From positions 55,107,028 through 55,171,027 of the forward strand of contig OZ024936.1 in NCBI GenBank assembly GCA_964017235.1: 64,000 nucleotides of DNA. The letters are read 5' to 3'. This DNA comes from Sabellastarte sp. h YS-2021 (taxonomy: Eukaryota; Annelida; Polychaeta; Sabellida; Sabellidae). Positions 9,335-50,500 of the stretch are shown here, piece after piece; position 1 is the first letter of the stretch, and each line of letters starts with the position of its first letter. The notes beneath the pieces are model-generated. The model had not been told where the DNA came from and made no database searches. It saw nothing but the letters and a program-made list of their open reading frames with translations. Position numbers and translations under genes: made by a program.

Positions 9335-10325
9335 TTGGTGAACATGAAGAAATCAGAGCTGGACCCCAAACAGGTCTTCGACTTGGTCAGTTACCCAGTT
9401 CGACCTGAAAGAGGTCAAGGTCAGACCCACTCTGGAGCGTTGGCAGAGCTAAACGACAAAGATATAAGATCTTATGTCTGGTCTGGTCTGGTCTGTCCGG
9501 CCCAGCAACTGATGTCCCACATAGGGCCACTGACTGTGGCACTTAGTCAGGGTACCAGAATCACTAGAAAGATTATCCCTATACCCAGGTCATTGACATT
9601 CCACCCCCATCTAAAATGGTGGCTGGAGGAAGACAACATACTTCAAGGTCAACCATTACACCCACTAAAACATGCTCTGCAAATATTTACAGACACATCA
9701 AAAGAAGGGTGGGGTGCTCACTTAGGAGAACACACTACAAGAGGAATGTCGTCTCTCCCAGAAAGCAAGTTGCACATACATGTATGTTATCTGGAACTAA
9801 AGGCGGTCTTTCTGGCCCTGAAAGAGTTCCAAGACCTCTGCTTGAACAACATAGTTCTCATAGCTACAGACAACACCACTGTGGTTGCCTATATCAACAA
9901 GGAGGAGAGGGGATGAAGTTGGGCCCTCTGTGTGGCCTTTTGTGGAGAATCCTGACCTGGTGTTCCACGAAAACAGGTGAAAGCCTAACACATTCCAGGA
10001 CGGCTGAATGTGGTAGCAGACAAGCTATCCAGGCTAGGCCAGGCCATCCAAACAGAGTGGTCTCTCCTCCCAGTGGTCTTCCAATCAATATGCAACAGGT
10101 GGCATCAACCTCGGATAGACTTATTTGATACAAGGTTCAACAACAAACTGACCCAGTTTGTGTCACTAGTACCAGACCCCCTGGCTTGGTCAGTCGATGC
10201 ACTAAGCCTGTCTTGGGAGGATCTGGATCCATATGCCTCCCCACCAGTAGCCATCTTGGGCAAAGTGGTGGAGAAGTTACAGCACTACCCATGCAGGAGA
10301 ATCATTCTGATCTCTCCAGGGTGGC
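9335..10325 (+). pseudogene. DIRS-type RT thumb and RNase H fragment, broken
   Basis: Begins in the end of a reverse transcriptase (VNMKKSELDPKQVFDLV, then a RPT-like, QLMSHIG stretch). It continues into RNase H (IFTDTSKEGWGAHLG, LELKAVFLALKEF, ATDNTTVVAYIN) and then HIPGRLNVVADKLSR, EWSLLPVVFQSI, PRIDLFDTRFN and VDALSLSWEDLDPYASPP, the order seen in DIRS retroelements. A frameshift near 9905 and an in-frame TAA just before HIPG break it. No tyrosine recombinase follows. The fragment stops abruptly at about 10325 where a tandem-core repeat begins. It is a different DIRS lineage from the element at 11640. Confidence 0.85.
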
Positions 10326-11105
10326 AAGTTTGTCCGGGCTGTATCTCAGAAACCGTTAGACGTAGGAAGTTGATACTTGGTAGGGACATTGGTTAGGAGG
10401 TGTAGGTGTGCATCGTCATGGTGTGACCTTGATTTGACCTTGCCGTAGTGACCTTGACCTATAAAATCTTGTCCGGGCTATATCTCTGAAACCAAAAAGT
10501 GAAGGAAGTTGATACTTGGTAGGGACATTGGTTAGGAGGTATAGGTGTGTAACGTCATAGTGTGACCTTGATTTGAACTTTGACCATGCCGTAGTGACCT
10601 TGACCTATAAAATCTTGTCTGGGCTATATCTCAGAAACCGTAAGGTGTAGGAAGTTGATTCATGGTAGGGTTATTTGGTAGGGGGTGTAGGTGTGCAACG
10701 TCGTGGTGTGACTTTGATTTGACCTTGCTGTAGTGACCTTGACCAGTAAAAATCTTGTCTGGGCTTATCTGTGCAACCCTAAGGTGTAGTAAGTCGATAC
10801 TTGGTAGGGACATTGGTTAGGGGGTGTAGGTGTGCAATGCCATGGTAAGACCTTGATTCGACCTTTGACCTTGTCATAGTGACCTTGACCTATAAAATCT
10901 TATCCGGGCTATATCCCGGAAACTGTAAGGTGTAGGAAGTTGATACTTGGTAGGCAGTGGTGGGTGGTTGTAGGTGTGCAACGTCATGGTTTGTCTTTGA
11001 TTTGACCTTTGACATCTCCATAGTGGCCTTGACCTTTAAAATGTTGTCCGGGCTATATCTCAGAAACAGTAAGGTGTAGGAAGTTAATACTTGTTAGGGA
11101 GATTG
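10326..11105. repeat. Tandem core repeats of the ACCCCACAGCC element family
   Basis: About five units of roughly 150 bp, each with GTCCGGGCTATATCTC, AAGGTGTAGGAAGTTGATAC and GTGACCTTGACCTATAAAAT. These are the core units of the elements at 35240, 45030 and 48121. The hairpin 5' end and the 3' tail are missing, so this is a fragment fused directly to the DIRS remnant. Confidence 0.85.
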
Positions 11106-11946
11106 ATTGAAGTAAAACAATCATTCAGATGAACAATTGAAAGTTTTATTAGTACATATTACACCAGTAGTGGCATTATGCTGCACACATTCTGCCTGAC
11201 CACACATGTTGATGTATCAAGAAGACCTGAGTGATGTTACTTATTTTGCATCTCATTAGCATTGTATGCTGACATATTAGAGATAAGACTTGTGCAATCA
11301 GTTCTTATCACCAGCCTTGGATCGTGAAACCAGAACTTTTTGTCAGCATTGGTAGGAAGACATTACACATAATAATGTCTTGTATCCTATCCTGTAGGGC
11401 TGTAATCATTAGTGATTTCTGTAGATCGAGGATCGCCTGTTAGATGCGAGTTGAACTCGAGTAAATGACACAAATATAAATAAAATAACAATGTCCAAAT
11501 ATTGTCATTAAGGGATCCGCCATTACGTACAGATATATATGAGCACTTTATGAAACAGCCACGTAAATCAGGGAAATAAAAAACGACCATTGCTCATTGA
11601 TTTTTACGTCTTTATGGTTAAAAAATTGCAAAAGTGGTATTTTATTTCATAAAAATGTAAATATACTATACCATATGAAAACACTTGGGGTAGGCGTGGC
11701 TTGGCGTTCGGTGACCGCCACGTACACCGTACATAGAATTTAAATATATGAGGGGAGACCCTCTTTAAACCTATATACTTGCTACCTTTGACCCCTGGTG
11801 ACCTAATTCACTCTGCCATGCGCAGTAATACAGAAATAGTTCATTCTTTTTGTGGCGGTTGAACTATCAACAGGCGTTTTGCTACCTTTTTAAAAGACCT
11901 GCATTTACACGTTTTTGAAGCTCTGTGAGTCCTTCAGGAGATAAGA

Positions 11947-12850
11947 GTGTTGTTTTACTCAAATTTTCACTCTTACTTCCAGATCCCTCCACTTGCCAGT
12001 GGGAGGTCAACTGATTCCAGTGGTCTCTCAGATTCCACTTTCCTGATTCTTTCAGCTCTTCTCCACAGAAGAATGCTGTTCTTTGTCATTCAGTCTCACA
12101 CTGTCTGTTCACATGAGCAGTTCAAGTATCTTGAGCTCCTGTTTTCCTGATTTTTCAGGGCATTATCCTTGACAAAGATATACTGGAAACCACAATTAGA
12201 TTTATATCTTTTCCTGGTTTTCCAGACTATCAGGATGCAACTTATCAGTTGATCATTTTCTCAATTGGCCAGTGGACCACTTCTCTTCCTCAATTTGCCT
12301 CCTTTCTCTCCTTTGGCTCCTTTGGTTCACTCTTGCTCATAGTTTTGCTTTTGGGCAAGGTGTACCACTTTGTGGCAATGCCTTATGGTCTAGCCACTAG
12401 CCTTTCAGGATTTACTTCCTTAGTCAAGGAAGTAAGGAAAGTTGGCTTTGAGGTTGGGCATCTCAGTGCACATGTGACTACAAATTGGCTCATTAGAGCC
12501 AATAGTTGTCAGAGGCTCTTTTTTCAACTCTATTAGAGTTGACTTTCATCTTGGAGTGGTTCTTAGCAGGAAGTATTTACATCTGTTTCTTTAACAGGTC
12601 TCCTTCCTGGGTCAGGTTCTTAACCTGTTTCTTAATTACCTCTCTAACTGGGCTCCTTATTTCTTTTGGCTTCCACTTGGAAGCCGCTTCTTCAAGGTCC
12701 CTACACATGACACTTCTTCCGTGTCATCTCAGGACACTTGATTTTCCTTCTCAAAGGTGCTCTGGATTTTCCATTCCTTGATCCTTCTATGAAGGTTCAT
12801 TCAAGATGGTACTATCCTGGGAACTATGTCTTTGCATACCTCCCTTTAAT
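11947..12850 (+). pseudogene. DIRS reverse transcriptase region, decayed
   Basis: The clearest match is at about 12355-12510: KVYHFVAMPYGLATSLSGFT, then LVKEVRKVGFE, and shortly NWLIRANS. It corresponds to the RT pattern F-x-x-MPFGLxTAPxxFT ... D-D-WLIRA-S. The usual acidic pair of the YxDD-type box is not intact here (HVTTNW). Frames are interrupted by several stops before and after, so no working RT is encoded. Confidence 0.75.
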
Positions 12851-12989
12851 TCCCTAGTTTTTACATCTACTTTCATGGATGTTTCACTGCGGGGTTTGGG
12901 AGTTCTTTGTGCTCTGTGGACCACCTAAGGTCTATTTTTGATGTAGCAGTCCAGTCTGTGCATCAGTTCTAGAGCTCATAGCTGTCCTT

Positions 12990-13600
12990 TTTGCTCAGAC
13001 ATTTGTTCCTCTTTTATCCTTTCATCAAAGGATCATCCTTTCAGCCTCAAACAACTCAGATGTCTTGTTCTCAAGACATTTGTTCCTCATTTGTAAGGGA
13101 TTCTTCAGATAGTCCAGGTAACACTGTTGTCTGGGCTTTCTTTTTATCAAGACAGCTTCCACTCTTGGGACATGTGTATTTTGGCATCTTTTGCCATTAT
13201 TTTTACAAGAACAAGTCTGTTCTTCCACCTCATGTTCCAGGGGCATGAATCTTTGGCAGACCATCTCTGGAGGTCTTTTCTCACCTTTCATATAAGGTGG
13301 CCCTTCAATTCTTGGATCTTCAGATGGTAGTCTCAGACTTCTCATCTTATTTAGATCTCTTTTGCCATGTGATTCAATCACAAGCTGCTCTTACATGTGC
13401 CTCCTGTGCTAGATCCTTAGGCTCTGGCAACAGATGCCCTGGAGTGTTTTGGTCCGGAGTACTTATTTTACTCCTTCCCTCCTTCAGCCCCTTGTCCTCT
13501 ATGGCCATGAAGTTAATCAACTTTCAGAGCTGTATCATTATTCTTGTAGCCTTTCCTGGTAATTGCCAGGTTTGGCCTCAAGATCTCCTTTAAGAAAGCC
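12990..13600 (+). pseudogene. DIRS RNase H region, decayed
   Basis: SSDSPGNTVVWAFFLSRQ matches the DNTTVVxxL-type segment. HVPG followed in another frame by HESLADHLWR matches HIPGxxNxxADxLSR. IIILVAFPGNCQVWPQDLL matches the I-x-L-V-x-P-x-W-P ... W-x-x-x-L tail. Order and spacing are those of DIRS, with at least one frameshift at about 13240. Confidence 0.7.
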
Positions 13601-14000
13601 ATTGGCTCTTCCTCTTATTCTTTTATAACAATCTCATCTAGAGTTTTGTTATTTATTTTTATGGAGTTCCTTTCTTCAAGCTTTCTGGCTGAAGTCTCCT
13701 TTAACAAGAATTTTCACAGGAGGGGTCTTGGAGGATTTTTATCCTCCATAACTTTCTATGAAGCAATGTGGAACTGCTTCAAAAAACTTGTGAGAAACAT
13801 GGCCACTCTGCTATGCTTCAACTGTCCCATTTATTGCTGTTTGTTCCTTTTAAGGAATTATTTTTCAGACAATAGGGATACAGGTCAGCTCTCTCCAGGT
13901 ACTACTTGGAGTTGGGTTCTTATAGGAGCTAGGAAGTCTCATTTAGAGCTTCTTTAAGTCCAGAATTAGAGTAGTCGTCACCTACCTGTTTGGTACTTAA

Positions 14001-14625
14001 TCCTTGGTTCTGCAGGCTCTTACCAAGGCTCCTCTTGAACCTTTTCATTTGCTGAGCCAAGTTTTTCACATTTTAGACAGTCTTTCTTACTCCCTTTCTT
14101 TGGGAAGGAGAAGGAGTGATTTTGTTTCCTTTATTTAAAGGTTTTCTCTCACTCTTTAGGGATGGCCTAAGTCATCCTTAAGTCAGATCTTACTTTCCTG
14201 GCTTAAGCCAGTTATCTTCAGAAGGCTCTTCCTGCTTTGACTTTTTGTCTTTGGTCAGGATGACTTAGAAGACCTCTCCTTTTTTACAGTCAGATTCCTA
14301 AGATACTTTCTATCTAGCTATTCTGACTTAAAAGGATTTCTTCTTGGTCTTTCTTCTGAAGTCCAAGAGGGTGATATTGCTGCTCAGACAATATCTTTTT
14401 GGATAGCACTTTATCCTTTATTCCCTCAATCTCTGTTCCACAGAGAATGCATCTCTTCATGGTGTCAGGGCTCATCATGTCAGGGCACAGGGGTCTTCCT
14501 GGTCCTTTAGGGGTGGAATCCCACTCCTAGTCAACATGAGATCCTGCACGTGGAAGAGCCATTCCACTTTTACATCCTTCTATTTTAGGAATGTATTTCC
14601 TTCAGAGATGTTGTTCTTAAGAATC
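14001..14625 (+). pseudogene. DIRS tyrosine recombinase, decayed
   Basis: Starts SLVLQALTKAPLEPFH and has SLSLGRRRSDF, the box with the first catalytic Arg. In a later frame VRAHHVRAQGSSWSFRGGIP contains the H-x-x-R pair (His codon 14473, Arg 14482), TWKSHSTF the His/Trp-type position, and FYFRN the catalytic Tyr (codon 14581-14583). Stops (for example after DFVSFI) and shifts break it. The recombinase would integrate the circular cDNA. All catalytic residues can still be traced. Confidence 0.8.
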
Positions 14626-15066
14626 TCTTATGATTTCTTAAGTGGAGTGGACATCCTTTTCCACTCAGCCATTTCTCTCTCTTCTACTTAAATTCCTCAA
14701 TTTAAGTCCATCTGAAACTTTTAGTTTCAGAAAAAGGGGGGTGGCATTTCCCTTTTAGGGAATCTATTCTTCATCTCTATTTTCAGAACCGTGCTTCTTA
14801 GTGCCTCTGGGCATGTTCCTATTCTGAGCACAGGGCATACTTATGCCTTCTCCTTTGAGCTGACCTAATAGGGTGTAGACAGCAGTGCTGAAGTTAGTGC
14901 AGTGGTTAATGCTACTCACTTAGCTCACTCGAGTTATTGCTTCAGCACAGAGGTTTTGGGTTCAATTGCATTGCACTAGGAAGTATCCTTTTGTAGCAAT
15001 TTAACCTTAGGGTGGTTTTCCTCAGTCTGTCTTTTTCCCACCATCCTTCCATGTGGGCATTCAACC

Positions 15067-15180
15067 CAAGTGTTTTCATATGGTATAGTATATTTACATT
15101 TTTATGAAATAAAATTTCATATTTTTAAATGTAAAATGCATTTTTATGAATAAAAATGTATATACTTACCATATGAAAAC
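15067..15180. repeat. DIRS internal complementary region
   Basis: Positions 15067-15114 are the inverse of the element's first 48 bp and 15115-15180 the inverse of its last 66 bp. In DIRS elements this region templates the joining of the ends during circle formation. An equal copy lies in the derivative at about 25700-25815. Confidence 0.85.
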
Positions 15181-15811
15181 AGCAAATCACCCTCCCGCCT
15201 GCCCCGCTTTTAAAGACCTTTTTCCAGCATTTATGTTTATTCACAAAAAGAATGAACTATTTCTGTATTACTGCGCATGGCAGAGTGAATTAGGTCACCA
15301 GGGGTCAAAGGTAGCAAGTATATAGGTTTAAAGAGGGTCTCCCCTCATATATTTAAATTCTATGTACGGTGTACGTGGCGGTCACCGAACGCCAAGCCAC
15401 GCCTACCCCAAGTGTTTTCATATGGTAAGTATATACATTTTTATTCATAAAAATGCATTTTACATTTAAAAATATGAAAGTTTGTAACAAGATTAGTATA
15501 CCATTATATATTTCTTAAAAACTCGAGTTTAAATTGTGTAAACCGATGTCATCCCCAAATATCGCCCATCGAGTTACGACTCGAGTTTCGGTCAACTCGT
15601 TACAGCACTACTATCCTGTGTTTACTTTCTGTGGTGTATTTCTTGTCATCTCTGGGGAAGCTTGCTTTGTTTTTGCATGTGAAAACAGCCATTATCTACT
15701 TTATATTTGATAACTAATGCAGTCATATGTTATACATTTTGCAGCCAAAGTTAACAAATAAAAAGGTCTTTACCTACTGTACAACTCTCTTGTCAGAGCA
15801 TTTATAGGGTG

Positions 15812-23825: not shown

Positions 23826-24106
23826 CTATAACATAGTGGGTGGACGATTAGACCAATGTTCGATCAATCGTCGGTGTCATGGTACAATCGCATTCGGTCA
23901 CTGACAACTTCTAGAAATCGATTAAATCTTGCCCTTCTTTATGTGTCTTAATATCCATGTATTTTTATGTCGTCACTCTGCGGCGTGGGCGTCCACGTGA
24001 ACAACTTCTTCTCCGAAACTACAAGGCCTAGAGACATGCTGTTTTTTTTTAAAAGATACCTTATCTATCGAGGATTAAAAAGTGTTCAAGGCATGCAAAT
24101 CTGTCT

Positions 24107-26112
24107 TTTTATTTCATAAAAATGTAAATATACTATACCATATGAAAACACTTGGGTAGGCGTGGCTTGGCGTTCGGTGACCGCCACGTACACCGTACAT
24201 AGAATTTAAATATATGAGGGGAGACCCTCTTTAAACCTATATACTTGCTACCTTTGACCCCTGGTGACCTAATTCACTCTGCCATGCGCAGTAATACAGA
24301 AATAGTTCATTCTTTTTGTGGCGGTTGAAGTATCAACAGGCGTTTTGCTACCTTTTAAAAGACCTGCATTTACACGTTTTTGAAGCTCTGTGAGTACTTC
24401 TTTGCTGTTTTATTCACTTTTCCTCCATTTTATTTACCTTTTACTTCAATTTCTGGTGAATTTATTGTATACTTTGGGCATTATTTACGTATTTCTTCAT
24501 AATTCGTATTATCGCTCATCTGGTCACGTGGTGTTAGAATGTCGGATTACCTTTGGAGATATTCATTTCCTTTGTAAATTAATTCTTTTTATGCACTTCT
24601 ACAGGCATTTTTATTTTAATTTACGGTATTCCTTCATTCTTTCAACGAAATTCTTCGTTTCTCCACGTATTTTGACCGTATTGACTGTGCATAGTTTTTT
24701 CACATTTTAGACAGTCTTTCTTACTCCCTTTCTTTGGGAAGGAGAAGGAGTGATTTTGATTCCTTTATTTAAAGGTTTTCTCTCACTCTTTAGGGATGGC
24801 CTAAGTCATCCTTAAGTCAGATCTTACTTTCCTGGCTTAGGCCAGTTATCTTCAGAAGGCTCTTCCTGCTTTGACTTTTTGTCTTTGGTCAGGATGACTT
24901 AGAAGACCTCTCCTTTTTTACAGTCAGATTCCTAAGATACTTTCTATCTAGCTATTCTGACTTAAAAGGATTTCTTCTTGGTCTTTCTTCTGAAGTCCAA
25001 GAGGGTGATATTGCTGCTCAGACAATATCTTTTTGGATAGCACTTTATCCTTTATTCCCTCAATCTCTGTTCCACAGAGAATGCATCTCTTCATGGTGTC
25101 AGGGCTCATCATGTCAGGGCACAGGGGTCTTCCTGGTCCTTTAGGGGTGGAATCCCACTCCTAGTCAACATGAGATCCTGCACGTGGAAGAGCCATTCCA
25201 CTTTTACATCCTTCTATTTTAGGAATGTATTTCCTTCAGAGATGTTGTTCTTAAGAATCTCTTATGATTTCTTAAGTGGAGTGGACATCCTTTTCCACTC
25301 AGCCATTTCTCTCTCTTCTACTTAAATTCCTCAATTTAAGTCCATCTGAAACTTTTAGTTTCAGAAAAAAGGGGGTGGCATTTCCCTTTTAGGGAATCTA
25401 TTCTTCATCTCTATTTTCAGAACCGTGCTTCTTAGTGCCTCTGGGCATGTTCCTATTCTGAGCACAGGGCATACTTATGCCTTCTCCTTTGAGCTGACCT
25501 AATAGGGTGTAGACAGCAGTGCTGAAGTTAGTGCAGTGGTTAATGCTACTCACTTAGCTCACTCGAGTTATTGCTTCAGCACAGAGGTTTTGGGTTCAAT
25601 TGCATTGCACTAGGAAGTATCCTTTTGTAGCAATTTAACCTTAGGGTGGTTTTCCTCAGTCTGTCTTTTTCCCACCATCCTTCCATGTGGGCATTCAACC
25701 CAAGTGTTTTCATATGGTATAGTATATTTACATTTTTATGAAATAAAATTTCATATTTTTAAATGTAAAATGCATTTTTATGAATAAAAATGTATATACT
25801 TACCATATGAAAACAGCAAATCACCCTCCCGCCTGCCCCGCTTTTAAAGACCTTTTTCCAGCATTTATGTTTATTCACAAAAAGAATGAACTATTTCTGT
25901 ATTACTGCACATGGCAGAGTGAATTAGGTCACCAGGGGTCAAAGGTAGCAAGTATATAGGTTTAAAGAGGGTCTCCCCTCATATATTTAAATTCTGTGTA
26001 CGGTGTACGTGGCGGTCACCGAACGCCAAGCCACGCCTACCCAAGTGTTTTCATATGGTAAGTATATACATTTTTATTCATAAAAATGCATTTTACATTT
26101 AAAAATATGAAA
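24107..26112 (+). mobile_element. DIRS deletion derivative
   Basis: The ends and internal complementary region are the same as in 11640-15479. Positions 24690-26112 match 14058-15479 almost base for base. The RT and RNase H regions are absent, replaced by about 295 bp of unrelated AT-rich sequence (24396-24690). The recombinase H-x-x-R and Tyr codons are kept (Tyr at 25215-25217) with the same disruptions. The empty site is visible at about 30645 (CTGTCT|GTTCGTCTG), proving insertion without target duplication. Confidence 0.88.
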
Positions 26113-26339
26113 GTTCGTCTGTTTGCTACAGACATTACAAGGGAGGTACCCCCACCAAAAGTGTGAAAATTTCAACACTTTATCACAATTTTCTCAGTGA
26201 GTATTGCAGGGATTTCTCTCATATCTTGCATATATGTACTAGGCCAGAGGTAGATTCTCTTGTGTGAGTATGAGACCTGGATCTGTCTTATTTTTTTTTA
26301 ATAAAATTTTTTAATAATTTTTAATGCATTAAAAACCAT

Positions 26340-35027: not shown

Positions 35028-36480
35028 CACTTCCGCTTTAGTGGAATAGGGACATTAAATCTCGTTTGTCCATATGTCAGTTTGTCCATCACAAAAACTT
35101 TAACCTAGTCCATAACATCCAAACCCCATGACAGATTTTGACCCAATTTGGTAGAAAGGTTTATCCAAAGGAGATAAACAGTTTCTTTGGTTTTGGGCAG
35201 GATCCAATGAAAACTGTTGCTATAGCAATCATTTTTTATTACCCCACAGCCCTTCAGGGCTGTCGGGGTATAGTTTTCACCCATGGTGTCCGGATGGGGA
35301 TGGCGGGCGGCGGAAAAAAGTTTGTCCGGGCTGTATCTCAGAAACCGTAAGGTGTAGGAAGTTGATACGTGGTAGGGACATCGGTGAGGGGTTGTAGGTG
35401 TGCAACGTCATGATCTGACCTTGATTTGACATTTGACCTTACCGTAGTGACCTTGACCTATCAAATCTTGTCCGGGCTATATCTCGGAAACCGTAAGGTG
35501 TAGGAAGTTGATACTTGGTAGGGACATTGGTTAGGGAGTGTAGGTGTGCAATGTTATGGTCTGACCTTGATTTAACCTTTGACCTTGTCATAGTGACCTT
35601 GACCTATAAAATCTTGTCCGGGCTATTATCTCGGAAACCATAAGGTGTAGGAAGTTGATGCTTGATAGGGACATTGGTTAGGGGGTGTAGGTGTGCAGCA
35701 TCATGGTGTGACCTTGATTTGACCTTTGACCTTGTCGTAGTGACCTTGACCTTTAAAATCTTGTTGCACCTTTGGGTCTGTCTTTTGATGCAGATTAAGC
35801 ACTGTTAAAGTCATATTAGAATTCATTAAGAATTTTTCTTTTACAACTTCTCATTGTAACAGATGGAATTTCATCAAGTGAGCCGCAGATGTTGCTCCAA
35901 CACCACACATAAGCATTCATGGAATGTATTACCACTTCTGTATGCATGGTAATATTCAAAACATCCAAACCATAATTCGGCCATGCCAGATGTAGATAAA
36001 TAGTGTCGTAATGTTTAGTTTACTGATTAATGCTGTCATTTTAATATTAAATTGTCTTGTTTTAATACTTCATCTTTACATGTATTATCTTTCTCTTGGA
36101 CATTGTTTTCTCTAAGCATTGTTTGGACCTTTATATAACTGACAGTGCTCTGGAAGTATCCTGAACTTTGTACTGATACAGTACTTCTATATCTCATGGC
36201 GTTAAAAATATTTCCCTAGGCTGTCGGGTACGGACATCTCTGATGCTATTTTTTTTTTACTTTCTTGTCATAGACTGAACCCTTTGTTAGATTTTCACCA
36301 AGTTTGGCATAAAAGTGTACCTAGAAATCTATAACTCTTTCAGTTTTGGGGATAATCCAGTAAAAAGTGTTGCTATGGTAACCATTATTGTTTGAATATT
36401 TAGGTATTGTTAGGTGTACAGAGTATAGTTCAGGCACATTGATTGGATATTTTTCATTGGACCAACTTTCATAACATTAC
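35028..36480. mobile_element. TGTCCCT-hairpin repeat element, interrupted
   Basis: Starts with a hairpin (TGTCCCT ... AGGGACA) and a leader TTTGTCCATATGTCAGTTTG. It has one roughly 130-bp unit before and one after the element at 35240-36248 (ACAGATTTTGACCCAATTTG; TTAGATTTTCACCAAGTTTG). It looks like another small tandem-core family. The ends are not well defined. Confidence 0.5.
35240..36248 (+). mobile_element. Tandem-core Helentron-like element, ACCCCACAGCC family, copy 1
   Basis: 5' hairpin TACCCCACAGCCCT...AGGGCTGTCGGGGTA, three to four 150-bp core units, a unique tail (CTCCAACACCACACATAAGC) and a 3' end with GGCTGTCGGGTA, the near-inverse of the start. A terminal hairpin CATC-TCT-GATG follows, then CTA and T-rich flank. 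No ORF of note. Nested in 35028-36480. Confidence 0.8.
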
Positions 36481-45029: not shown

Positions 45030-46089
45030 TACCCCACAGCCCTTAAGAGCTGTCGGGGTATTGTTTTCACCCATGATGGGCGGGTGGGCGGGCGGCGGGA
45101 AAAAGTTTGTCTGGGCTGTATCTCAGAAACCATAAGGTGTAGGAAGTTGATACTTGGTAGGGACATTGGTTAGGATGTGTAGGTGTGCAACATCATGGTC
45201 TGACCTTGATTTGACCTTACCGTAGTGACCTTGAGTTTGAAAATCTTGTCTGGGCTATATCTCAGAAACCGTAAGGTGTACGAAGTTGATACTTGGTAGG
45301 GACATTGGTTAGGAGGTGAAGGTGTGCAACGTCATGGTCTGACCAGGATTTGACCTTTGACCTTGTCATAGAGACCTTGACCTATAAAATCTTGTTCCGG
45401 CTATTTCTCGGAAACCGTGAGGTGTAGGAAGTTGATACTTACTAGGGACATTGGTTAGGGGGTATAGGTGTGCAACATCATGGTCTGACCAGGATTTGAC
45501 CTTGCTGTAGTGACCTTGACCTATTAAATCTTGTCCGGGCTATATCTCGGAAACCGTGAGGTGTAGGAAGGTGATACTTACTAGGGACATTGGTTAGGGG
45601 GTGTAGGGGTGCAGCATCATGGTGTGACCTTGATTTGACCTTGTTGTAGTGACCTTGACCTATAAAATCTTGTTGCACCTTTGGGTCTGTCTTTTGATGC
45701 AGATTTGGCACTGTTAAATTCACATTAGAATTCATTAAGAATTTTACTTTTACAACTTCCCATTGAAACCGATGGCATTTCATCAAGTGAGCCACAGATT
45801 TTGCTCCAACACCACACATAAGCATTCATGGAATGTATTACCACTTCTGTATGCATGGCAATATTCAAAACAACTAAACCATAATTTGGCCATGCCAGAT
45901 GTATATAAAGTATATGCATTAACTTTCTCTTACAGACATTATTTTCTCTATTTAAACATTGTTTGGACCTTTATATAACTGACAGTGCTCTGAAAGTATC
46001 CTGAACTTTGTACTGATACGGTACTTCTATATCTCATGGTGTTAGAAATATTTCCCTAGGCTGTGGGGTACGGGCATCTCTGATGCTAG
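45030..46089 (+). mobile_element. Tandem-core Helentron-like element, ACCCCACAGCC family, copy 2
   Basis: 5' TACCCCACAGCC hairpin, four to five 150-bp core units, tail with CTCCAACACCACACATAAGC. The 3' subterminal GGCTGTGGGGTA is the exact inverse of the start. A terminal hairpin GCATC-TCT-GATGC and CTAG follow before TTTT. Its flanks are T-rich, with no clear duplication. Confidence 0.85.
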
Positions 46090-47580: not shown

Positions 47581-50500
47581 TTAAGCAGCCCGCTTATTTG
47601 TTTTCACATAAGTACGACTGATCACCTCCGCCGCCGGATTATGGTCTCCCTTGAATAACTTCTTGGACTTTTAAATTTTCTTTCCTTCTTATCTTTCTTT
47701 AAAACTATAGGGGCGGGAAAAATTTTTGGGATACTTTGCGGAGACCTTAAGCTTTACTTAAGGTAACCTTAAGCATTTTTAGAAAACAACCCATCATCAC
47801 ATTTCAGAAAAAAAAAACCACACACCTATGCTATAAAATTTATCAGGTATATTCTAGACCTAAATCCGCAGGTCAGAAAGGATTTTCAGATCAATTGAAC
47901 CATAGATGCCTGAATGGGAGGCATTTTATTTTCGTAAATATTTTTATAAATGGGTACTTGATCTGTATCTCAAAAATGGTCAGGGTTTCGACGTTTTCTT
48001 GGAATAACTTATTGAGCTACTTTTTGATAATCTTTCACATGCCAAAGTCTTGTATCAACAATCTTAAGGTCACCTTAATGTCAAAAAAGGGGGTTTTAGC
48101 CCTCCAGTTCACTTAGTTTTTACCCCACAGCCCTTAAGGGCTGTCGGGGTATTGTTTTCACCCATGGTGTCCAGATGGGCGGGTGGGGAAAAAGTTTGTC
48201 TGGGTTGTATCTCAGAAACTGTAAGGTGTAGGAATTTGATACTTGGTAGGGACATTGGTTAGGATGTGTAGGTGTGCAACGTCATGGTCTGACCTTGATT
48301 TGACCTTGCCGTAGTGACCTTGAGTTTGAAAATCTTGTCCAGGCTATATCTCGGAAACCGTAAGGTGTAGGAAGTTGATACTTGGAAGGGACATTGGTTA
48401 GGGGGTGCCGGTGTGCAATGTCATGGTCAGACCTTGATTTGACCTTTGACCTTGCCGTAGTGACTTTGACCTATAAAATCTTGTCCAGGCTATATCTCGG
48501 AAACCGTAAGGTGTAGGAAGTTGATGCTTGGTAGGGACATTGGTTGGGGATGTAGATGTGCAACATCCAGGTCTGACCTTTTTTTGACCTTGCTGTAGTG
48601 ACCTTAACCTATAAAATCTTGTCCAGGCTATATCTCGGAAACCGTAAGGTGTAGGAAGTTGATACTTGGTAGGGATATTGGTTAGGGGGTGTAGGTGTGC
48701 AACATCCAGGTCTGACCTTGATTTGACCTTGCTGTAGTGACCTTGACCTATAAAATCTTGTCCAGGCTATATCTCGGAAACCGTAAGGTGTAGGAAGTTG
48801 ATACTTGGTAGGGACATTGGTTAGGGGTTATAGGTGTGCAGCATCATGGTGTGACCTTGATTTGACCTTTGATCTTGTCGTAGTGACCTTGACCTTTGAA
48901 ATCTTGTTGCACCTTTGGGTCTGTCTTTTGATACAGATTAAGCATTGTTCAAGTCATAGTAGAATTTATTAAGAATTTTAAGAATTTTACTTTTATAACT
49001 TCCCATTGTAACAGATGGAATGGAATTGTAACAGTGAGCCACAGATTTTGCTCCAACACCACACATAAGCATTCATTGAATTTATTACCACTTCTGTATG
49101 CATGGTATAACTGACAGTGCTCTGAAAGTATCCTGAACTTTGTACTGGTACAGTACATCTATATCTCATGGTTTTAAAAATATTTCCCTAGGCTGTGGGG
49201 TACGGGCATCTCTGATGCTATTTTTCACTTTTTTCAACCAAACTTGGCACATATATTAAGATTTACCAAAGGATTATCTGGACTTTATGGTGACCTTAAG
49301 CTGTTAATATAATTTGAGCTATGCCCCCCTCCCCCCTAAAGTCATAAAATTGGAATAAAGCCATCTGGCCCCTTTCTTTTTCCATATCTAACGTGTATTG
49401 ATATTGAAGTAGATCAAAAGAATACTCTTATTACCTTATGATTTTAATATTAATGATGTTATGGCCATCTTAAACTTAAAATGTGGGGTTTTTCAGTTAA
49501 TGTTTAATTTTTTAAAATAAAACTTGGCACATTTATAAAGGTTGCCAGAAGGGATATTCTCATTTTATGGTCACCTTAAAGTCACAATATGAAGGAAGTT
49601 ATGGTCACCTTACAGTGAAAAAGGAAAGTTTTCAGCCTTCAGCTATCTTATTGTTCAACTGACCTCAGCTAAAACTTTATCCACTTATAAAGGATGACAA
49701 AAGGGACATTCTTATTTATGGTTACTTTGAAGTCTCAATATGAATGAAGTTATGGCTACCTTGCAGTGAAATTATGCAGTTTTTAACCTCCAGCTATCGT
49801 ATTGGTTGGCTGACCTTAGTTAAATTCTGCACACTTATTAAAGATGGCTATAGGGACATTCTAATTTTCTTTCCACCTTGGAGTTCCAATACAAATACAG
49901 CCATGGCCATCTTGACATAAAAATGAGGGATTTCAGCTCCCAGCTGACTTACTGTTCAATGGCATCAGTTCAACTTGACATATTGATTAAGCTTAAGGAA
50001 GATTTTTAATGACCTTTTTACTTAAAATTCCTGTATTTGAGAGACTTTGGCCATCTTAACATAATAAATATTTAGTTTTTGCTCCCACCTCATTTATTTT
50101 AAGATTTTTTAAAACGACACCTGCCACATGTATACTTAAAACAAAATTTTTGTTATCTGGCAAAGCTAACCTAGTGTTTTTCAAATTATGGCATCTTCAT
50201 AGAAAAAGAATGAGGTATTTAGCATGCTGTGATGTGGTTATTAATATATTGCAGCTGATCAGAGTTCATATAATATAAATTCCAATTTTAGGCACATTAA
50301 ATCACACATTCTTCTGATTCTATTCTTGTGGAATTGTGTGGATATGACCTTTCCTTTTTGGAGAAAAAAGCTTTAATTAATTCAGCTCTTGTTAAGCAGG
50401 AGTTGTTGATCTAGCTACTTATTCAAGTACACTATGTAAATTGGTCAAATGTATAGACTTGACTTCTTTCAGAAGATAAGATGACTGGAAAAAAACACTT

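Follow-up and report, generated by a model that had tools for sequence, protein, structure and literature searches.

The window analysed here is a stretch of 64,000 nucleotides of the Sabellastarte sp. h YS-2021 genome (contig OZ024936.1, positions 55,107,028 to 55,171,027; assembly GCA_964017235.1, 1.79 Gb in 647 contigs). At about 11640-15483 it carries a copy of a non-autonomous derivative of a DIRS-type retrotransposon, with broken relics of the reverse transcriptase (RT), RNase H and recombinase genes. The hairpin-tiled RNA predicted for this element is a real, specific and selected-looking feature: the anatomy is that of DIRS, and the RNA property resembles the genome-scale ordered RNA structure (GORS) of viruses. 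Purifying selection on the local structure of the predicted sense RNA appears to be the best reading of this feature.

The left inverted terminal repeat occupies 11640-11854 (forward strand), the right one, with the terminus, 15242-15483 (reverse strand); 11649-11854 equals the reversed right end with 98.5% identity over 206 bp. The internal complementary region at 15065-15181 (forward strand) is a copy of the circle junction: it matches both termini, with the left end (11640-11689) and the right end (15413-15483) joined to each other, each as its reverse complement. Such a region is part of the DIRS-1 anatomy (PMC5633606). Three relics lie between the repeats on the forward strand. The RT relic (GKVYHFVAMPYGL...FTSLVKEV...WLIRANS) is located at 12269-12512 (tblastn against related DIRS loci, best E ~6e-7), the RNase H/connection relic at 13255-13489 in a different frame (E 2.8e-7 against locus L062) and the tyrosine recombinase relic at 13829-14595, spread over two frames with stops (E 1.5e-7 against L051 and 7e-7 against L046). 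Since translation of the window copy yields only relics with stops and frame changes, we class it as a non-autonomous derivative rather than a true DIRS element. The first-pass annotation had described the hairpin-rich region as a DIRS coding region; the region is decayed and belongs to an amplified element without a long frame. The strand of the RT relic is called sense below, and its T content is 37%. No obvious target-site duplication was seen when both ends of four copies were checked by eye.

Copies of the element and related DIRS loci

A second copy, deleted differently, lies at 24106-26115 of the window (forward strand; left terminal repeat 24107-24400; 99.6% identity over 1421 bp at 24696-26115). 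A genome search with a 601-bp query returned 944 first-look candidates, and the 40 of these 944 that were scored were all 100% identical to the query. A 39-mer spanning the hairpin at 12412 was found in 467 genomic places within 3 mismatches, and the 100 places listed were exact. Fifteen copies with flanks were hand-picked from the 40 scored; three more, the places that head the 39-mer list, followed later. All 15 fetched copies have extra sequence at 11925-11940 (no strand assigned), where about 2.3 kb is gone from the window copy, with a 7-bp overlap at the junction. The hairpins are present in this missing part as well.

The complete copy L022 measures 6167 bp, and its longest stop-to-stop frame has 157 codons. 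The other 14 fetched copies are 99.3-99.97% identical to it in long blocks, except for a 99.2% piece in L025. Near-identical copies and the lack of a long frame in L022 together indicate, at the level of sequence, that a gene-free element family has been amplified very recently. Within the 5' part of L022 (L022:1420-1907) a unit of about 208 bp occurs twice in tandem; the two units are 75% identical and have matching hairpins with a changed loop. Comparing the hairpins of these paralogous units showed one G-U to A-U change plus loop changes. Elsewhere in the genome, at G000:C6:99541336-99565879, four matches to one 20-mer of the element lie 8.1-8.3 kb apart on one strand. This spacing suggests that the element, or a unit that includes it, is repeated in tandem there.

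Potential helper elements are many, given that DIRS-related matches are extremely numerous: a protein search with the other DIRS fragment of the window (9335-10325) gave 47,267 first-look candidates, 150 of which were scored, yielding loci 62-85% identical to the fragment. These loci align to the hairpin-tiled element at only ~26-49%. Many of the DIRS-related matches listed have long open frames. This is the case for L060 (RVT_1, 4.5e-22; RVT_3; a Phage_integrase recombinase match below the cut-off, E 0.018) and L052 (RT_RNaseH, 2.5e-6); L062 has a stop within the matched part.

Just 5' of the internal complementary region, the stretch 14893-14980 includes a 7-nt TAGTGCA/TGCACTA pair. We take it to resemble tRNA-derived sequence, presumably with box A- and box B-like motifs. 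ARAGORN reported no tRNA genes, this stretch included, and the single Rfam match was sub-threshold (E 0.36).

Hairpins, four-nucleotide loops and predicted folding

Compared with dinucleotide shuffles, the region 11940-14900 has about six times as many short perfect inverted repeats. The annotation had counted at least 15 hairpins with a stem of at least 6 bp and a loop of 3-5 where two or three would be due to chance, and its count holds: there are 16, against 2.62 ± 1.6 in 200 shuffles, the highest of which reached 8. With stems of at least 7 bp and loops of 3-8 there are 13 against 1.06 ± 0.99 (maximum 4). All nine of the hairpins it had named were found, at or a few bases from the places where it had put them. 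Examples, all on the forward strand, are TTACTTCCTT-AGTC-AAGGAAGTAA (12412-12435, spanned by the 39-mer with 467 genomic places), ATCCTTT-CATC-AAAGGAT (13016-13033), TGGAGGAT-TTTT-ATCCTCCA (13729-13748) and TCTGAAACT-TTT-AGTTTCAGA (14711-14731). The proposed spacing of 40-60 bp was too dense: the 2961 bp hold 21 perfect stems of at least 6 bp with loops of 3-8, one in roughly 140 bp. A denser tiling, with a hairpin loop every 38 nt, is found only in the predicted fold of L022 (164 loops in 6167 nt).

At stem 6 and loop 3-5, the second copy also shows the excess (4 against 0.72 at 24690-25500), and the DIRS fragment at 9335-10325 is at background (1 against 0.88), as the annotation had noticed. 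The distance between the ends of the RT and RNase H matches is 977 nt in the element and 978 nt in L062, which agrees with its view that the hairpins are not inserts. Inserted hairpins and programmed-bypass or intron-like hairpins are both rejected on this spacing. In the next gap, between the RNase H and recombinase matches, the element has about 70 nt fewer than L062.

Other parts of the window also have more perfect hairpins than their shuffles, mostly by a smaller margin. The counts are 16 (shuffles 8.65) at 0-8 kb, 77 (40.8) at 26-62 kb, 8 (2.66) at 15-17 kb, a stretch that includes the end of the element, and 17 (3.04) at 20-22 kb, where the same hairpins recur along a tandem array. What distinguishes the element from the rest of the window is its preference for loops of 4 nt. 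Outside the terminal repeats of L022, stems of at least 6 bp enclose a loop of exactly 4 in 16 cases against 1.05 expected, loops of 0-3 in 4-5 cases each against 0.8-1.25, and loops of five in none against 0.9. The loop letters favoured are A or C, any, T, and C or T, with NNTC in 11 of 18 loops against a 9% background.

The roughly twofold hairpin excess at 26-62 kb and the T-rich sense strand would suit an artefact of composition or repeats, i.e., pyrimidine-rich sequence, tandem repeats or chance. We consider such an artefact hardly credible: no shuffle reached the observed counts, T-richness reduces self-complementarity, and the tallies for 1-11.6 and 32.5-62 kb, the two stretches compared from the rest of the window, are flat in loop length, with no preference for 4 nt. 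Present-day editing or hypermutation was considered and rejected, the changes confined to one copy among 27 copies being G>A 15, C>T 11, A>G 11 and T>C 9, so the T-richness looks older.

The related DIRS loci were tallied too. In 29 of them (L037-L065, many with stops; 104 kb) there are 31 tetraloop stems, or about 1.6 per 5445 nt. The same loci contain 88 perfect triloop stems of at least 6 bp, a number well beyond that of every other loop length between 3 and 8; a few hairpins common to homologous copies may be behind it.

According to folding predictions with pairs allowed within 60 nt, L022 is tiled throughout with short local hairpins in its sense RNA. The predicted sense fold reaches -1608.8 kcal/mol, where 10 local dinucleotide shuffles give -1182 ± 24, and it has 70 tetraloops against 33; the antisense fold, computed without a shuffle control, has -1412.2 kcal/mol. 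Mean z per 200 nt is -3.01 for the sense and -2.37 for the antisense strand of L022, against -0.68 to -1.35 for the related loci L052, L060 and L062. When the whole window was scanned, mean z was -2.15 in the element and -0.32 in the other 483 scan windows. The sense strand is predicted to be the more structured one (-2.25 vs -1.71 in 45 windows of 120 nt; paired t p = 0.0043, Wilcoxon p = 0.014), and in the three related loci the difference between the strands is not significant.

These predictions bear on the idea that the single-stranded DNA of the DIRS cycle is under selection instead of RNA, e.g., for compaction or protection of the cDNA circle. Strong structure in both strands, and a nearly unchanged z (-2.17) when folding is restricted to Watson-Crick pairs, would be expected if DNA were selected. 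Nevertheless, we find the idea improbable, because the sense strand exceeds the antisense strand in folding and in the energy cost of changes (see below), and in stems with at most 2 mismatches G-T outnumbers A-C 9 to 1 (1.02 and 0.95 in shuffles).

One tandem repeat with a period of ~139-146 bp (TTGTCCGGGCTATATCTC...) forms four arrays in the window, at 10326-11105, 35318-35764, 45103-45673 and 48192-48907. The first of them directly adjoins the DIRS fragment at 9335-10325.

Changes among copies

Selection was assessed in 30 copies with L022 as the reference, by comparing changes present in one copy with those shared by at least two (multi-copy) on the predicted structure. One-copy changes presumably arose mostly after insertion or in the last cycle, and multi-copy changes are presumed to have come down through an active source. 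Among the one-copy changes, 80 of 216 are unpaired, as composition predicts (base-matched expectation 87.1). Multi-copy changes avoid pairs: 37 of 57 are unpaired against 24.4 expected (P = 0.0003; Fisher p = 0.00026 against one-copy changes), so that only 20 fall in paired sites where about 33 would be expected. The same contrast between multi- and one-copy changes is found in young copies alone (15 of 21 vs 22 of 72 unpaired, p = 0.0018) and in old copies alone (22 of 35 vs 58 of 144, p = 0.022). It persists without sites near indels (p = 0.0003-0.001), with adjacent changes merged or the query-biased region dropped, and with four reference copies at a pair span of 60 (p = 0.0003-0.015). Inner bases of perfect stems carry none of the 57 multi-copy and 16 of the 216 one-copy changes (p = 0.028).

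The predicted energy cost points in the same direction. Multi-copy changes cost 0.26 kcal/mol in the sense fold against 0.86 for random changes (P = 0.0046), and 0.31 against 0.66 in the antisense fold (P = 0.07); compared with one-copy changes, p = 0.038 for sense and 0.27 for antisense. Selection on the sense RNA would account both for the stronger sense folding and for the scarcity of multi-copy changes at paired sites.

Three older copies, L066 (~96%) and L067 and L068 (~97.8%), were checked for 27 hairpins that are perfect in L022 within a 4.4-kb segment. In L066, L067 and L068, respectively, 18, 17 and 15 hairpins are unchanged, 4, 4 and 5 differ in the loop only, and 0, 2 and 2 have lost the outermost pair; each of these copies also holds three hairpins absent from L022. 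Among the hairpins of the window copy (forward strand), loop-only differences affect TCAACTCT-ATT-AGAGTTGA (12524-12542) in L067 and L068, ATGTCTTG-TTCT-CAAGACAT (13060-13079) in all three and ACTTAAATT-CCTC-AATTTAAGT (14686-14707) in L068. Below the threshold are ATTGGCTC-ATTA-GAGCCAAT (12484-12503) in L068, GGCTTCC-ACTT-GGAAGCC (12668-12685) in L066 and L067 and AAGAACA-AGTC-TGTTCTT (13207-13224) in L067. In L066, one pair of the hairpin CAGTCT-AATC-AGACTG is changed on both sides, TA to CG; for this pair, genome-wide exact 20-mers number 140 with T-A, 3 with U.G, 2 with C-G and none with C.A. Covariation support is thin.

The annotation had offered two causes, selected structure and template-switch correction. 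The former gains from the avoidance of pairs by multi-copy changes and from the more structured sense strand. The latter supposes that intrastrand template switching during replication or reverse transcription perfects imperfect palindromes in each cycle without any benefit, and that noncoding elements are not purged of them. Template switching may have made the stems: published cases favour 4-nt loops and can give perfect stems in a single event (PMC8794818), the stems of the element are rich in Watson-Crick pairs, and in the first hairpin (peptide FTSLVKEV, compared with FT[V/M]L[A/V]KEV in relatives) it is the left arm, not the right, that departs from the protein of the relatives, as if copied from the right. 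It explains their upkeep less well. Two-sided changes should then be about as frequent as reversions, yet the 57 multi-copy changes include none. An excess on the sense strand is not expected from a process that is strand-symmetric. The 29 related loci have few tetraloop stems, though they do have 88 triloop stems. Overall, we regard template switching as an unlikely explanation of the pattern.

Selection on the sense RNA has its own difficulties, and the following observations weigh against it. The test among copies depends on predicted structure; at a pair span of 120 it is weaker (p = 0.010-0.047), and a narrower test of pair-breaking changes gives p = 0.046-0.069. There is no clear preference for G-U over A.C (6 and 3 among multi-copy, 37 and 29 among single changes), and G-U pairs are less frequent in the predicted fold (10.7% of pairs) than in shuffles (15.8%). 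No two-sided compensatory pairs occur among the multi-copy changes, and of the double-changed pairs in L066 just 1 of 4 is compensatory, the numbers being small. In L066, L067 and L068, 4, 4 and 5 of the 27 hairpins are below threshold, and the NNTC loop is not strictly kept among older copies. The related loci have an excess of triloop stems, though not of tetraloop stems. Finally, a search with one narrow terminal-repeat pattern found no close autonomous partner with the same terminal repeats.

Possible role of the hairpin-tiled RNA

On balance, we think it probable that this is a non-coding, recently amplified DIRS-type family with a hairpin-tiled sense transcript, in which copies that lose pairing leave fewer descendants. 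The element would be moved by proteins supplied by those DIRS elements of the genome that have open frames. Its sense transcript, predicted to form short local hairpins along its whole length, with a preference for 4-nt loops, would be the selected molecule, presumably as the template for retrotransposition, and copies whose RNA loses pairing would be transmitted less often.

As for the benefit, the most likely one, which we propose tentatively, is that self-paired RNA would be compact and hidden from the element's own antisense transcripts and from double-strand RNA sensing. This proposal rests on the inverted repeats of DIRS-1, which yield sense and antisense transcripts (PMC5633606). A second benefit, somewhat unlikely in our view, would be that repeated tetraloop hairpins act as binding sites capturing the proteins of the helper. 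More doubtful is an RNA signal array, in which dozens of tetraloops (A/C-N-U-C/U) would recruit the capsid or RT of helper DIRS elements; by carrying ever more binding sites on its RNA, a gene-free parasite could then win this machinery away from the helpers that make it.

Several known systems share some of these features. DIRS-1-like tyrosine recombinase retrotransposons have the anatomy of the element (PMC5633606) and the genes of which it keeps relics, but L022 has no intact frame, and the folding excess (three loci) and the 4-nt-loop excess (29 loci) of its DIRS relatives are much weaker or absent. In persistent RNA viruses, GORS is a pervasive excess of folding energy along the whole RNA (PMC3695492, PMC3950689 and PMC7642675). 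The predicted folding energy of the element likewise lies well below sequence-order controls along the whole RNA; in contrast, the element is a noncoding retrotransposon with mostly short hairpins and a preferred 4-nt loop. Template-switch hairpins share perfect stems and 4-nt loops with the element; PMC8794818 describes them in rRNA and microRNA genes, and the element keeps its hairpins without compensatory doubles among multi-copy changes, the only two-sided change being that of the older copy L066. Our searches on DIRS hairpins or RNA secondary structure, on GORS in retrotransposons and on non-autonomous DIRS elements found no such description among the titles and opening lines of abstracts they covered, which mostly lay outside subscription journals.

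The lifestyle of an abundant nonautonomous retroelement is shared with the large retrotransposon derivatives (LARDs) of cereals, which are abundant, conserved and nonautonomous, with a noncoding structured interior. LARDs are LTR retrotransposons with direct long terminal repeats, unlike the element, whose terminal repeats are of the inverted, DIRS type.

Selection on RNA structure and template switching are usually hard to separate, because both make compensatory changes. The several hundred copies, young and older, constitute a natural experiment for telling the two apart. An RNA designed as a string of hairpins is better known from some viruses and is predicted here for a mobile element without genes. 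If the proposed selection on RNA structure holds, decayed-looking retroelement sequence can function at the RNA level, and a gene-free transposable element would have been shaped, as some RNA viruses are, by selection on the folding of its whole RNA.

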